Shown here piece after piece: positions 6,884 through 20,657 of a stretch of 20,792 nucleotides of DNA. Below the pieces are notes generated by a model. That model made no database searches. It was not told the origin of the DNA and saw only the letters and a list, made by a program, of their open reading frames with translations. Both the position numbers and the translations under genes were made by a program. Source of the stretch: a virus; the IMG/VR virus record IMGVR_UViG_3300035204_001802, positions 1 through 20,792 of that record; one strand, 5' to 3'. The stretch's first letter is position 1. Every line of letters starts with the position of its first letter.

Positions 6884-7459
6884 ATGACATTTTGGACAAA
6901 CCCACTATCAGAACCGAAACGCGAACATAGATTTATTTTGAGAATTCCGGAGCTATCAAGCGTCGACGGAGACTTCTCTTATCAAGACTATCTTGCGAAG
7001 TCGGTCACAAAGCCGTCTTATACGGTCAGCAACACTCCTCATAAGTTCCTGGGAAATACCTATTACTATCCTGGAATCGTTGAGTGGGGAGCCGTCTCAG
7101 CGGAAATTGTTAATGCAGTCAGTCCTGACGGCAACAAGATTATGATGGATGCTCTTACGAAGATGGGATACCTCCAGCCAGATATTCAGGAAGATATTTT
7201 TCTTGCAAACCAAGACCCCAGTACCCCCAATAAGAACGCTGCAGCGATCACACTTGGGGAAGTCTCGATTGAAGAGTTGTCTGGTGGTGGTGGCACCCTA
7301 GGCACCTGGAAGCTCCACAATGCCTTTATTACTTCCGCAAAGTTTGGTGATCTAAATTATGATAATGAAGGAATCCTTAATGTTTCATTAGAATTCCGGT
7401 ATGATTGGGCTACCTATGAAGTGGGTATGGCTACCATGACGCTCCACAACGCAACCTAA
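6884..7459 (+). CDS. 19: Tail tube protein, gp19-like
   Basis: The 191-aa product forms the inner tube through which DNA passes. The length is close to T4 gp19 (163 aa). Near the N-terminus, EHRFILRIP and LAKSVTKPSYTVSNTPHKF fit the first strands and the long loop of the tube fold. YYPGIVEWGAVSAEIV is a typical tube strand pair; the C-terminal part has HNAFITSAKFGDLNYDNEG and VSLEFRYDWATYE, the closing beta hairpin of gp19-family proteins. AGGAGA lies 8 bases before the ATG. The sheath-then-tube order is the standard one in myoviruses. The gene has its own leader after the hairpin, consistent with an abundant product. Confidence 0.85.
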   Translation: MTFWTNPLSEPKREHRFILRIPELSSVDGDFSYQDYLAKSVTKPSYTVSNTPHKFLGNTYYYPGIVEWGAVSAEIVNAVSPDGNKIMMDALTKMGYLQPDIQEDIFLANQDPSTPNKNAAAITLGEVSIEELSGGGGTLGTWKLHNAFITSAKFGDLNYDNEGILNVSLEFRYDWATYEVGMATMTLHNAT

Positions 7460-7479: not shown

Positions 7480-8343
7480 GTGAGTAGAAAAAACTCCAAC
7501 AGGACCAAGCGGGCTCCTGACGAAACGCCCGCACCCCTTCCTCCAATGCCCAAACATATGGAGGACACAAGTATCTTTTCTTTTACCACTCCGACGGAGT
7601 TTGTAGAATTACCAAGCAAGGGACAGTTCTATCCTCCCTCCCATCCGCTTCATAATACGGATGTGTTGGAAATTCGCCATATGACCGCGAAAGAAGAGGA
7701 TATTCTGACATCTGAAAGCCTTCTTAAGAAGGGGCTTGTGATGGAACGACTTATTCAGTCCGTTTTGGTCGATAAAACCATCGATCCCAATTCTCTTTTA
7801 ATTGGCGACAAGAACGCAGTGCTAATTGCCATTCGACAGACTGGCTTCGGCGATAGATACAGCACAGATATCACTTGTAATGCTTGTGGCGCGCTAAATC
7901 AGAAAGATTTCTCCCTATCCGAGAAGACAATGAAAGAAACTTCCATGGAAGAGGATGTTACGATGCTCGAAAATGGCAATTTCCTCCTAACAGTGGGTAA
8001 TTTCGATCCTCCCATCCAAATGGAGATTCGATTGCTCACCGGCGCCGATGAAGCACGCATTACTAAGACAGTTGAGAACCGGAAAAAGTTAAAACAAGAT
8101 ACTGGTAACGTAACGGAGATTCTTAGGAGTATTTTGGTCTCAGTAAACGGAATTAGCGACCGAAGTGCCCTCGCGCAGATTGCTGATCAAATGCCGGTTG
8201 CGCTTTCTAGGAGAGTCCGAGCCGTATATGATGAAACAATGCCAAATGTAGAGTTATATGGTGACTTCACTTGCGATTCGTGTGATCACGCGGAACGATT
8301 GGAGGTGCCGATCACACTCGGCTTTTTTTGGCCTGACCTCTAG
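7480..8343 (+). CDS. 26: Baseplate hub / tail assembly factor, gp26-like, with zinc-ribbon CxxC pairs
   Basis: A GTG start at 7480 is preceded by AAGGTGA; the overlapping ATG at 7478 runs straight into a stop. The 287-aa product has the pattern of the T4 gp26 baseplate family: FVELPSKGQFY (about residues 41-51), an IRHMTAKEEDIL segment (65-76), a helix leading to LIGDKNAVLIAIRQTGFG (107-124), then C133-x2-C136. A second pair, C265-x2-C268, lies near the C-terminus; the two pairs could bind one zinc ion. In T4, gp26 and the neighbouring gp51 are needed for baseplate hub assembly and are absent or scarce in the mature virion. The last codons run over a seven-T stretch (8323-8329) that may shift ribosomes into the next ORF. 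The location just before the tape measure fits a tape-measure chaperone. Confidence 0.72.
   Translation: MSRKNSNRTKRAPDETPAPLPPMPKHMEDTSIFSFTTPTEFVELPSKGQFYPPSHPLHNTDVLEIRHMTAKEEDILTSESLLKKGLVMERLIQSVLVDKTIDPNSLLIGDKNAVLIAIRQTGFGDRYSTDITCNACGALNQKDFSLSEKTMKETSMEEDVTMLENGNFLLTVGNFDPPIQMEIRLLTGADEARITKTVENRKKLKQDTGNVTEILRSILVSVNGISDRSALAQIADQMPVALSRRVRAVYDETMPNVELYGDFTCDSCDHAERLEVPITLGFFWPDL
8323..8329 (+). promoter_or_regulatory. Candidate translational slip site (seven Ts)
   Basis: In the gp26-like frame this reads GGC TTT TTT TGG. A phenylalanine tRNA on TTT at 8326-8328 can re-pair perfectly with TTT at 8327-8329. That +1 move leads to GGC CTG ACC TCT, the frame of the small downstream ORF. 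A -2 slip would reach the same frame. The zero-frame stop (TAG) comes at 8341. The fused product would be 342 residues (283 plus 59). Confidence 0.4.
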
Positions 8344-8356
8344 TTACCAAGAGTCC

Positions 8357-8509
8357 ATGTATGAAGAGTTTTTTATGCTCAAGCAACATGGAAATTGGTC
8401 GTTTCAAGAGGCATACATGTTGCCGACAGGATTGCGCCGCTGGTTCCTCCAAAGACTGGTTCAACACTTCGAAGAACAAAACAAAGCGCAAGAGGAAGCA
8501 TCTCAATAA
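8357..8509 (+). CDS. Small tail assembly protein, possible frameshift extension of the gp26-like protein
   Basis: From the ATG at 8357 this encodes 50 residues, in the frame +1 relative to the gp26-like gene. The frame is open upstream through the overlap, so coding may instead enter by slippage near 8323 and add 59 residues. The sequence contains EEFFMLKQHGNWSFQEAYML and PTGLRRWFLQRL, a compact helical motif resembling short ORFs that follow the gp26 gene in other T4-like phages, where gp51 sits in T4. The candidate ribosome-binding site (AAGAG) is only 3 bases from the ATG, which is weak and favours frameshifting. Overlapping chaperone ORFs before the tape measure gene are a recurring feature of tailed phages. 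A terminator follows the stop. The reality of the peptide is likely; its mode of translation is unresolved. Confidence 0.62.
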   Translation: MYEEFFMLKQHGNWSFQEAYMLPTGLRRWFLQRLVQHFEEQNKAQEEASQ

Positions 8510-8572: not shown

Positions 8573-8890
8573 ATGGAAAAACAAAAAATCGTTATAGACC
8601 TGAATAACAACTCTCTAAATGAAGCACTCTATAATCAATTCTCGCGCGATGTGGGAAGGCTATTAATAGACATGTACCATGCAGGCTTTGATATCCCCAC
8701 TACCATTCGGGGTACTCAAGAACAAATTGACTCCTTCTTCAAGGCACTTAAAAATGAGAAAAGATATATGGACAGTTACGTCAGGCACGGTCTCGACGAT
8801 TCTCGAACATTATCTAATCGTCACCGTCTTATGTCGTCTGTTGAATCGTTTGAAAATGAAACGGGCTTGCGTTGGCCTTTCAAGAATTGA
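8573..8890 (+). CDS. Small hypothetical protein preceding the tape measure
   Basis: This 105-aa protein has no family I recognise. It is soluble and mainly helical in appearance, without signal peptide or membrane segment. Features include an N-terminal strand-like KIVIDLNN, a helix with DVGRLLIDMYHAGFD (about residues 26-40), and a charged stretch ending in GLRWPFK. TGAGG precedes the ATG by 9 bases, and the stop codon overlaps the ribosome-binding site of the tape measure gene (TTGAGG), so the two are probably coupled. Its place between the gp26-like chaperone region and the tape measure suggests a role in tail assembly, perhaps as a third chaperone (T4 has gp28 in this area), but nothing in the sequence shows this directly. 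Confidence 0.72.
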   Translation: MEKQKIVIDLNNNSLNEALYNQFSRDVGRLLIDMYHAGFDIPTTIRGTQEQIDSFFKALKNEKRYMDSYVRHGLDDSRTLSNRHRLMSSVESFENETGLRWPFKN

Positions 8891-18289: not shown

Positions 18290-19477
18290 TTGCTTTTTCA
18301 AGTACTGGACTCTAAAGCAGAGTGTGTAGGAATTTATACAGATAGTATGCTCAAGCCAGGGGCTCTTGTGCCCCTCCAGGGTGAGACCTGGGACTATTCG
18401 CCGCACCTCCTAGGAAACGACTACGAAATAGCGCGCATCTACAGCCAAGGAGCGACGATTACAGACGTTTGCCCGGAGGATTTGAAGGAGGACTGGGAAA
18501 AGATCAAGAAGACGCTTAAATCGTGTCTCAAAGCCTTTAACACTTCCCGTGTCTCACTCGATGAAAACTGTTTTTATGATGTGGTGCCCGAATACTTCTT
18601 ATATCAATACCTGGAGACCAAAAATCGCATCACTCATCATGTGTTAGAGACAATCCCAAGACCGGAGAACTATGATTTCATGTATAATCTCGTCGAGATG
18701 CTCACAGACATTCGATCCCGCGCACTACACATCGATCTGGGACCCATTCAACACCTGTTGGGTTCTGTTCGAGGGCAAAACTTTCATCGGACAATCAATA
18801 CCGTTCGACACGTATCAGATTATAATCCGTGGGGCACCATTACAGGAAGATTATCTACTAACCCAAAGAGCTTTCCTATTCTTACCATGAATAAGGAATT
18901 TCGAGCATGTATGCAGCCCACCAATGATTGGTTTGTGGAGTTGGATTTTAACGCTGCCGAGCTGCGGACGTTATTAGCCCTGTCGGGGGAACAACAGCCC
19001 CAAAACGACATTCATGATTGGAACGTTAAGAACATTTTTGATGACAGTCTGACTCGGGAAGAGGCTAAAGTCAAGACCTTTGCGTGGTTATATTCCAGCA
19101 ACGAAAACAAGGACTTAGAGCGTCTTTACAACAAAGATTTAGTGCGGAATAAGTACTGGGATGGCTTAAAAATTACGACGGATTATGGTAGAATAATAGA
19201 GAACGTAGACGAGCATCATGCCCTCAATTACATCGTTCAAAGCACCACAATTGACATGGTGCACGAGCAGGCTTACAAAATCTACGAGCTTTTGAAGGGG
19301 AGAAAAAGCCACATCGCATTTCTTATTCACGACGCTGTGTACATCGATCTCGCCGAAGAGGATCGCTACGAAATATTAAATTTGCTTGACACATTCAAGA
19401 AAACGCGCTATGATATGTTCAAGGTTAACGTCTCCGCCGGAAGAAACCTCGGAGCACTCAAGGAACTCAGACTATGA
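18290..19477 (+). CDS. Compact family A DNA polymerase, no exonuclease domain
   Basis: A TTG start is preceded by AAAGGGG, 5 bases upstream; the first in-frame ATG, at residue 20, lacks such a site. The 395-aa product carries the Pol I palm motifs: TGRLST (185-190); motif A D219-F-N-A-A-E224-L-R; motif B R256-x3-K260-x3-F264-x3-Y268, where the usual Gly after Tyr is Ser; a Q-S-T segment (317-319); and motif C H347-D348-A, where the common Glu after the catalytic Asp is Ala. Both metal-binding Asp residues and the motif B Lys are kept, so activity is plausible. No 3'-5' exonuclease motifs (DxE and so on) are seen; the first 170 residues may be a reduced thumb. Motif spacing is shorter than in Pol I (41 versus about 53 residues from A to B), so the fingers are small. 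T4 uses family B gp43 instead. It is followed by a coupled MazG-like gene. Confidence 0.85.
   Translation: MLFQVLDSKAECVGIYTDSMLKPGALVPLQGETWDYSPHLLGNDYEIARIYSQGATITDVCPEDLKEDWEKIKKTLKSCLKAFNTSRVSLDENCFYDVVPEYFLYQYLETKNRITHHVLETIPRPENYDFMYNLVEMLTDIRSRALHIDLGPIQHLLGSVRGQNFHRTINTVRHVSDYNPWGTITGRLSTNPKSFPILTMNKEFRACMQPTNDWFVELDFNAAELRTLLALSGEQQPQNDIHDWNVKNIFDDSLTREEAKVKTFAWLYSSNENKDLERLYNKDLVRNKYWDGLKITTDYGRIIENVDEHHALNYIVQSTTIDMVHEQAYKIYELLKGRKSHIAFLIHDAVYIDLAEEDRYEILNLLDTFKKTRYDMFKVNVSAGRNLGALKELRL
19386..19414 (+). promoter_or_regulatory. Near-consensus sigma70 promoter before the MazG-like gene
   Basis: TTGACA (19386-19391), a 17-base spacer and TATGAT (19409-19414; one mismatch to consensus) lie within the 3' end of the polymerase gene. 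Transcription would start near 19421, about 53 bases before the MazG-like start codon, giving the two downstream genes expression independent of the polymerase. Confidence 0.55.
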
Positions 19478-19794
19478 AAAAGAAGCTATTATATCACAAA
19501 CTCGTTAGGGATCGTATTCCAGAAATAATCGAACGCGAGAACAAAGGCTTTCAAGTAAGCCAGGTGGATGCCATGAAGTTGCGTCAGTATGCTTTCAACA
19601 AGTTGCGAGAAGAGGTGGAAGAGTTTATTGAAAACCCCTGTGCCGAAGAAGCAGCAGATATCCAGGAAATCCTGGAGTTTATCTGCCATCGTCAGGGAAT
19701 TAGGTCTCGCACCATTAACGCTCAAAAAGTAGCTAAGTATGCCACCAAAGGTGGATTTGAAATGGGATATATTTTGGAGTGGGTTGAAGAATGA
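19474..19794 (+). CDS. MazG-like nucleoside triphosphate pyrophosphohydrolase
   Basis: The 106-aa product overlaps the polymerase stop by 4 bases (ATGA), with AGGA 9 bases before the ATG. The N-terminal KLVRDRIPEII (residues 9-19) and C-terminal K-x4-GGFE-x-G are signatures of a short MazG / phosphoribosyl-ATP pyrophosphohydrolase-like family. The metal-binding pattern is present: EEVEE (46-50) and E59-x2-D62, on two helices of an all-alpha fold. Such enzymes hydrolyse (d)NTPs to monophosphates and pyrophosphate with Mg2+. Phage members have been proposed to clear non-canonical nucleotides, supply dNMPs, or lower (p)ppGpp; the sequence cannot tell which. Placement between a DNA polymerase and a gp32-like gene favours a nucleotide-pool role during replication. 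All key residues are present. Confidence 0.85.
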   Translation: MKKKLLYHKLVRDRIPEIIERENKGFQVSQVDAMKLRQYAFNKLREEVEEFIENPCAEEAADIQEILEFICHRQGIRSRTINAQKVAKYATKGGFEMGYILEWVEE

Positions 19795-20657
19795 GAGTCG
19801 TTGGGCTTGGAAAAGCAGGCTGTAATATTGCGAAGGCATTTTCTAAATTCCCCCAATATGAAACTCATGGGATAGACACACACGACAGTGCTACCATTAC
19901 CATTCGTAGCAAAAAGAGCCACGAAGATTATGATGAAAGCTTTCCTAACCTCAAGCGCAAGCTTAAGTTCACCAACGAAGATGTGATGGTGGTGGTGGCA
20001 GGCGCTGGCACAATTTCTGGGGGTACACTTCGACTATTGGAACAGCTTAAGAGCAATCGCCTCACGGTTTTGTATATTGAGAGTGATCTCTCAATTATGA
20101 GCGAAAACCAAAAGAAGCAAGAAAAAATAGTAGGAAACGTCTTACAAGAGTACGCTCGCTCGGGCATACTAGAAAACCTTATATTAGTATCAAACCCAGC
20201 TCTTCAAAAGAGCATTGGTGATATGTCTATAATTGGTTATTACGACACATTGAATCAGGCCATCGTCAACACGATCCATATGATTAATGTTTTTAAGCAC
20301 ACCGAGCCGGTGATTGGCAACTTTATCCATCCCGCTGATATTAGCCGCATTTGTACTCTTGGTATCGTGGATATGGAAGACGATGACGAGCGCAAACATA
20401 AAGAAAAGTGGTTTTACCCCTTGACAAGCGTTCGTGACGTGGTATACTATTATGGTATTGGAGAGGAAGACTTGAGGAACGACGGCACACTGTTCAGAAA
20501 GATCAACAACTTTGTGAAGTCTCGTGTTGGTGACAATCTTAACGTTTCGTATGGCGTATTTAAAACCACCTACGAACAGAAATATTGTTATTGCATTAAG
20601 TATTCATCTATGGTACAATCATACAAAGAACTACTAGACGATCAGGATATTGGCTGA
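19791..20657 (+). CDS. Divergent FtsZ/tubulin-like protein
   Basis: Start and upstream stop overlap (ATGA); GGAG lies 11 bases upstream. The 288-aa product follows the FtsZ/tubulin GTPase order: strand 1 and loop RVVGLGKAGCNIAKAF (residues 2-17; FtsZ has IGVGGGGGNAVNRM); VVVAGAGTISGGTLRLLEQL (67-86) in place of the GGGTGTG signature loop; LTVLYIESD (91-99) at the TVGVVTxPF position; LENLILVSNPALQKS (127-141), matching DTLIVIPNDRLL; a helix YDTLNQAIVNTIHMI (151-165) at ADDVLRQGVxGI; and VIGNFIHPADISRI (174-187) resembling the T7 loop INVDFADVRTVM, with N177 and D183 kept but one catalytic-type Asp unclear. The C-terminus is short and ends acidic (LLDDQDIG). It is smaller than FtsZ (about 380) and PhuZ (about 315). 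The fold call is from motif order; polymerisation and GTPase activity are unproven. Confidence 0.72.
   Translation: MRVVGLGKAGCNIAKAFSKFPQYETHGIDTHDSATITIRSKKSHEDYDESFPNLKRKLKFTNEDVMVVVAGAGTISGGTLRLLEQLKSNRLTVLYIESDLSIMSENQKKQEKIVGNVLQEYARSGILENLILVSNPALQKSIGDMSIIGYYDTLNQAIVNTIHMINVFKHTEPVIGNFIHPADISRICTLGIVDMEDDDERKHKEKWFYPLTSVRDVVYYYGIGEEDLRNDGTLFRKINNFVKSRVGDNLNVSYGVFKTTYEQKYCYCIKYSSMVQSYKELLDDQDIG
20421..20448 (+). promoter_or_regulatory. Near-consensus sigma70 promoter upstream of the gp32-like gene
   Basis: TTGACA (20421-20426), a 16-base spacer and TATACT (20443-20448; one mismatch) lie inside the tubulin-like gene. A transcript starting near 20455 would have a leader of about 235 bases before the gp32-like start, including the hairpin at 20638-20661. 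The spacer length equals that of the promoter at 18194. Confidence 0.5.

Follow-up and report, generated by a model that had tools for sequence, protein, structure and literature searches.

Frameshifted tail assembly chaperones are general in long-tailed phages. Within the T4-like phages, frameshifting is reportedly conserved in several groups, as found by Vladimirov, Gautam and Davidson in 2022. Excerpts of the papers on PRFect (PMC10885494) and Adele (PMC12846349) refer to Vladimirov 2022 both for T4-like chaperones encoded by separate genes and for polyT −1 signals. According to the available portion of PMC5009743, −1, −2 and +1 shifts are each used for tail products, in different phages, and G-T frameshifting is widespread 'except T4'. 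The haloarchaeal myovirus HSTV-2 is described in extracts of the same paper and of PMC8211752 as very likely using a +1 shift. Bacillus phage 0305phi8-36 has a two-gene tail chaperonin, for which its authors found no frameshift in the part of their account available (PMC2147016). Here we analyzed a 20,792-base virus record, referred to as the window, in which a gp26-like gene and a small overlapping +1 frame very probably form, judging from the sequence, a single tail assembly chaperone locus with a +1 frameshift.

Gene Content and Putative Frameshift Site of the Window

The coordinates of the locus and its neighbors are collected in Table 1. On its profile matches, the product of the gp26-like gene, here referred to as TAC-N, is a member of the T4 gp26 family: it matched T4_baseplate (gp26/gp51, PF12322) with 42.3 bits against a Pfam cut-off of 24.5 (E 9.2e-11) and the PHROGs baseplate hub family phrog_150 (E 5.2e-11). 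The gene order is tail tube, TAC-N, the +1 extension (TAC-C) and the probable tape measure gene, the placement expected of frameshifted tail chaperone pairs. No telling Pfam or PHROGs family match was obtained for the 806-residue protein; it is probably the tape measure protein given its place, its size and the record of Flavobacterium phage immuto, where an annotated tape measure gene directly follows the equivalent pair of TAC-N and small frame. Between the chaperone locus and the probable tape measure gene sits a 105-aa frame (8573-8890), for which Pfam and PHROGs gave no match up to E 1. Scans of the window for Rfam families (gathering threshold) and tRNAs found nothing. Farther downstream, positions 18290-19477 encode a 395-aa protein of DNA polymerase family A (PF00476, E 1.9e-14), short for its family and possibly part of a split polymerase, and positions 19791-20657 encode a 288-aa protein beginning MRVVGLGKAGCNIAKAF, which resembles FtsZ/tubulin by eye only and had no Pfam match at E 0.01.

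Table 1. Features of the tail assembly chaperone locus and neighboring genes in the window.
Feature	Position	Strand	Remarks
gp26-like gene, TAC-N (short tail assembly chaperone)	7480..8343	+	287 aa; GTG 7480, TAG 8341-8343; PF12322, phrog_150
Putative frameshift site TTT TTT TGG	8323..8331	+	P-site UUU 8326-8328 to UUU 8327-8329; A-site UGG; from conservation
CCT, Pro codon in frame 0	8332..8334	+	T supplies the second position of the conserved +1-frame Leu codon CTN
TAC-C, 59-codon +1 extension (GLTSSYQE...ASQ)	8330..8509	+	codons 8330-8506, then TAA 8507-8509; profile matches
ATG in +1 frame, candidate independent start	8357..8359	+	not conserved
Tail tube protein gene, just upstream of TAC-N	6884..7459	+	phrog_4542 tail tube, E 3.1e-19
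Probable tape measure protein, 806 aa	8903..11323	+	by place and size

The 3′ end of frame 0 reads GGC (from 8320) TTT TTT TGG (the last from 8329) CCT GAC CTC TAG, with a run of seven T at 8323-8329. An earlier note on this DNA had placed GGC TTT TTT TGG five codons before the stop, and the TAG indeed comes five codons after the slip codon. From ATG 8258 the +1 frame stays open up to its stop at 8507-8509, and reading the window bore out the note's proposal that a +1 slip on TTT re-pairs and enters a frame of 59 residues, giving a fused product of 342 residues. The −1 frame is closed 4 bases before the frame-0 stop. Taken from the window alone the +1 frame is only suggestive, since it was also open in 3.1% of 20,000 shuffles of the segment with the same base make-up; its conservation among relatives makes it secure.

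Conservation of the Slip Codon and the +1 Extension

Relatives were collected in IMG/VR scans, each of which kept its best 80 loci, so that all counts refer to loci kept. The first scan supplied L001-L080; together with the window, three further scans and eight named phage loci this gave 269 loci, four of which lie on contigs ending before the stop, leaving 265 to be read. The gene ends with TTT TTT TGG CCT in the window and in the best 80 relatives, except for five with TTC TTT TGG CCT. In 258 of the 265 loci, the window included, frame 0 has a TTT with T or C as the next base at most 12 codons from the stop, and the +1 frame is open for at least 30 bases past it. The other seven were L011, whose contig ends, and L085, L088, L089, L169, L274 and L279. 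Two later scans added 160 loci, one of them truncated, and 145 of the remaining 159 had the same pattern. The 14 without it were L364, L375 (in which the chaperone frame is broken early), L384, L385 and the ten members of a subclade, L444-L453; as the scans overlap, L364 is the same contig as L279, and L444 the same as L169. A conserved out-of-frame 3′ extension with a conserved slippery site was thus present in 258/265 and 145/159 loci, and the check proposed in the earlier note, whether homologs keep the T run and the overlap, was positive for the slip codon and the overlap.

The 403 loci with the +1 pattern correspond to 315 distinct sequences, and in all 403 the open +1 frame goes with a frame-0 TTT whose next base is T or C. 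From this set we drew 140 representatives with complete extensions and less than 85% DNA identity; TTT was a selection criterion for them, yet no locus with a recognized +1 extension lacked it. A profile of TAC-C trained on the window and L001-L080 matched at +1 in 254 of the 265 loci; of the 184 loci it had not been trained on, 174 matched. Among the ten misses, L114, L163 and L281 are cut short, L087 has an open +1 frame that the profile does not recognize, and in the remaining six it is the −1 frame that holds the extension or is open.

Codon usage argues for dual coding of the overlap. Of 138 representatives, 136 have CCT as the first Pro codon after the slip, which was not a selection criterion; in gene bodies, CCT accounts for 285 of 899 Pro codons (32%). 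Dual coding predicts such an excess, since the T of this codon also serves as the second position of the Leu codon that stands at the extension's start. Phe codons in gene bodies are TTT in 817 of 1064 cases. Among 42 representatives of the window's clade, differences in the +1 frame over 50 codons fell on codon positions 1, 2 and 3 in 31, 15 and 54% of cases, the pattern of a coding frame. For the nine codons directly after the slip, the values were 29, 28 and 43%; this weaker third-position excess fits the overlap with frame 0, although it is less telling. The residues directly after the slip are conserved, with G in 86%, L in 99% and Y in 89% of aligned rows.

Independent Start, Direction of the Shift and Other Explanations

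The small frame could instead be a separate gene, which ribosomes that have terminated at the TAG at 8341 would enter by coupling or reinitiation at ATG 8357 or at an ATG farther on. This ATG begins 14 bases after the first two bases of the stop codon, near enough for coupling, and detached forms exist in L274 and L279 (ATG right after the stop) and in L085 (TAATG). However, no conserved start codon for the small frame was found among the 140 representatives: 24 have no ATG anywhere in TAC-C, 77 lack ATG, GTG and TTG over the first 20 codons past the slip, and in 136 the first such codon downstream lies beyond the sixth codon, so that the conserved residues precede it. Some ATG, GTG or TTG occurs in the +1 frame before the slip in 78 representatives, 11 of which have a Shine-Dalgarno (SD)-like 5-mer ahead of one, and 32 lack a start codon both ahead of the slip, in the open +1 frame, and over the next 20 codons. 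In the window, the ribosome-binding site of ATG 8357 is too close, as the earlier note held, with AAGAG only 3 bases before the ATG. In none of the 140 representatives does an SD-like 5-mer precede a start within the first 20 small-frame codons, which is a weak point against a separate gene because the genes' own starts mostly go without one (present in 28/139, and in 34/130 of the next genes). Furthermore, the truly detached L274 and L279 have their extension in another frame and have no TTT-Y. The same note had counted homologs whose small ORF is detached and started independently as evidence against a frameshift; such forms do occur, in L274, L279 and the distant L085, but they are rare, and we regard a separate gene in the window as very unlikely.

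Slighter still is the probability of a −2 shift, which would add one extra Phe, as proposed for Mu. The earlier note had allowed for either direction, and TTT TTT T does permit −2 re-pairing, as do 257 of the 315 distinct sequences. The other 58 (e.g., TTC TTT T and ACC TTT C) would mispair at −2, whereas the chosen codon re-pairs at +1 in all 315 (UUU to UUU in 274, UUU to UUC in 41), so that only the +1 half of that proposal stood. The sites of the Flavobacterium immuto group read TTT CTT TGG or TTT CTA TGG, and since a prfB-like slip on the Leu codon would leave CTA mispaired, the rule shared by all sites appears to be UUU followed by a pyrimidine. This also qualifies the note's emphasis on the T run: the UUU codon before a pyrimidine is kept, and the full run of seven T is not essential.

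Slippage of RNA polymerase on the seven consecutive T of the window, with transcripts of altered U number encoding the fusion, is scarcely credible given that relatives with only TTCTTTT or TTTC retain the +1 frame. Polymerase slippage needs longer runs than these, and the short T runs of some +1 relatives argue that the arrangement does not depend on the run of seven. Chance overlap or sequencing error has a negligible probability, the share of shuffles open over an equal length notwithstanding, as many separate contigs have the same arrangement as the cultured Microcystis phage Mel-JY01, Flavobacterium phage immuto and Rhodothermus phage RM378.

Proposed Mechanism and Possible Stimulators

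The product of a +1 shift would most likely be a long tail assembly chaperone, made through tRNA-Phe slipping from UUU to UUY. A majority of ribosomes would terminate at the TAG at 8341 and give TAC-N. In a minority, tRNA-Phe would occupy UUU 8326-8328 in the P site with UGG waiting in the A site, step one base forward onto UUU 8327-8329 and continue reading GGC CUG, yielding the joined protein, TAC-NC, with its 59 residues as a helical C-terminal domain. If the pair works as lambda G and GT do, the role of TAC-N would be to coat the tape measure protein, and that of TAC-NC to bring in tail tube subunits. The sequences themselves establish the conserved site, the dual-coded stretch, the coding character of the +1 frame, the want of a conserved start and the homologies; the occurrence of the shift, its rate, a pause at UGG and the role in assembly are inferred. 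UGG is generally not a rare codon, and this, like the results on RNA structure and SD-like stimulators below, counts against this account.

An alignment of 19 sequences gave no conserved RNA structure around the site (4 pairs, 0 with compensatory change); the window alone folds somewhat better than its shuffles (z −2.2), for which the alignment gives no support. No SD-like stimulator was found at the prfB spacing among the 140 representatives, in which the nearest SD-like 5-mers begin 12-13 bases upstream (5 occurrences). In the same representatives SD-like 5-mers often lie between 24 and 40 bases upstream of the slip codon, including GGAGGTG in the window (8290-8310). This is farther than known stimulators, and these 5-mers may merely reflect the coding sequence.

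Relatives With −1, Detached or Interrupted Extensions

In the cyanophages P-SSM2 and Syn9 the site reads T TTT TTC, and in Pelagibacter phage HTVC008M T TTT TTT, in each case with the extension at −1. All of the best 80 IMG/VR relatives kept for P-SSM2 have T TTT TTC with the −1 frame open (two are cut by the contig end) and the +1 frame closed. A profile built on +1-fused proteins scored the joined products of these phages better than the short ones (P-SSM2, 2e-12 vs. 1e-7; HTVC008M, 4e-9 vs. 7e-5; Syn9, 4e-8 vs. 1e-3) and aligned across the junction in all three, which shows homology of the window's chaperone to the −1-linked proteins. In Stenotrophomonas phages CM1 and RAS14, AGT TTT TTT A lies farther from the stop with the −1 frame open. 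Their extension was not recognized by the profiles and the fused profile stops at the junction, so that a −1 reading there draws on the heptamer and the open frame. RM378 (L087), with its open +1 frame, likewise gave no match to the extension profile, and the fused profile ends at its junction.

L274 and L279 fall inside the +1 rows of the tree. In this detached type, represented by two contigs, a separate ATG follows the stop and starts the extension, which has an N-terminal addition and lies in another frame, and the slip codon TTT-Y is lost. In L085 (4680-4790), from the huge phage LR756511, the chaperone has an Arg/Glu-rich tail and the ATG of the small ORF overlaps the stop.

The subclade L444-L453 ends in AAT TTC TTY TGG CCY TCC CRG TAR (or CGA in L444). 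Its extension lies at −1 in the nine members long enough to show it, with no classical slippery heptamer; only L447 and L448 of the ten retain TTT-Y, the other eight having lost it, and four members have CCC as the Pro codon and six CCT. In a 42-row tree with midpoint root these loci form one clade (100/98, 8 rows) between +1 groups, and L169 stands among +1 rows in the wider tree, so that the simplest account is that +1 gave way to −1 here. Our guess is that a single codon slips here, from UUC to UUU at AAT TTC.

In L384 and L385 (1300-1893 in each) a GIY-YIG endonuclease frame is inserted directly after TTC TTC TGG CCT GAT TTT TAA, at the frameshift junction; the L384 frame matches PF01541 (E 8.5e-6). 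The extension profile found nothing in either locus.

Predicted Structure

The AlphaFold2 model of TAC-N has a pLDDT of 89, and TAC-C was predicted as three helices with a mean pLDDT of 83. Against the PDB, a second-look alignment of the TAC-N model placed HK97 gp13 (2ob9) first of 996 chains, with a modest Z of 5.2 and an rmsd of 6.6 over 96 residues, and Foldseek ranked the same HK97 tail assembly chaperone second (E 0.3). The named matches of the TAC-N model in the viral library were largely baseplate hub or baseplate proteins, some of them called T4-like. TAC-C alone had no structural match in that library at E 0.001, and no PDB sequence relative of the fused protein was found up to E 1.

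Comparison With Known Systems

The locus is of a known kind, a frameshifted tail chaperone. Its short chaperone, predicted rare extended form and place before the tape measure gene recall lambda G/GT as presented in excerpts of PMC5009743. However, lambda shifts by −1, whereas the extension in the window lies at +1, outside the lambda-type tandem slippage on X XXY YYZ, and the site would have a single P-site tRNA stepping forward. HSTV-2, as described in the available text, is likewise a myovirus with an inferred +1 shift in this gene class, in an archaeal host. The prfB (RF2) site CUU UGA, as described in extracts of PMC10885494, shares the single-tRNA +1 slip onto a U-rich triplet, and the immuto-group sites contain CTT T, resembling prfB. 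The A-site stop and close SD-like sequence of prfB have no counterpart in the window, where UGG occupies the A site and no SD-like sequence is closely spaced.

With T4 gp26 and gp51 the locus shares the PF12322 family and the existence of a short and a long form, but in T4 the long form is a second gene, while the window has one locus with a +1 shift. The earlier note had equated the small ORF with gp51; T4 does use two genes, but gp51 is a second gp26-like protein, both T4 proteins matching PF12322 (E 8e-65 for gp26 and 2e-53 for gp51), and its C-terminus aligns weakly with the extension (domain E 0.44). In 0305phi8-36, by the description in the available part of PMC2147016, long and short chaperone forms arose by duplication, as in T4.

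A literature search, which did not cover Vladimirov 2022 itself and is no proof of absence, turned up no paper that we recognized as describing a +1 shift in T4-like chaperones. The +1 step, the strict UUU-Y rule and the changes of direction within the T4-like chaperone family therefore appear to be new. In public records, those of immuto, Mel-JY01 and RM378, pieces of the extension frame are split off into separate hypothetical proteins (L082, 4860-4970; L084, 4734-4970; L087, 4698-4874), so that the long chaperone is missing from the annotation. The 315 distinct natural +1 sites all obey one strict rule, a U or C after UUU, and the natural losses can serve as controls; together they make it possible to test what +1 slippage requires and how frameshifts change direction in evolution.

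A further comparison is with the Kyanoviridae (P-SSM2, Syn9 and HTVC008M), which have a related TAC-N and an out-of-frame TAC-C, theirs at −1 and that of the window at +1. We give even odds to the broader proposal that the same two-part chaperone is joined by different recoding, its direction flipped and its product kept, with a +1 form not previously described: a +1 shift on UUU-Y by a single step of tRNA-Phe, with no evident stimulator, in a large set of mostly uncultivated T4-like phages, a −1 shift on U UUU UUC in cyanophages, another −1 form lacking the classical heptamer in L444-L453, and two genes in T4 and in L274/L279.
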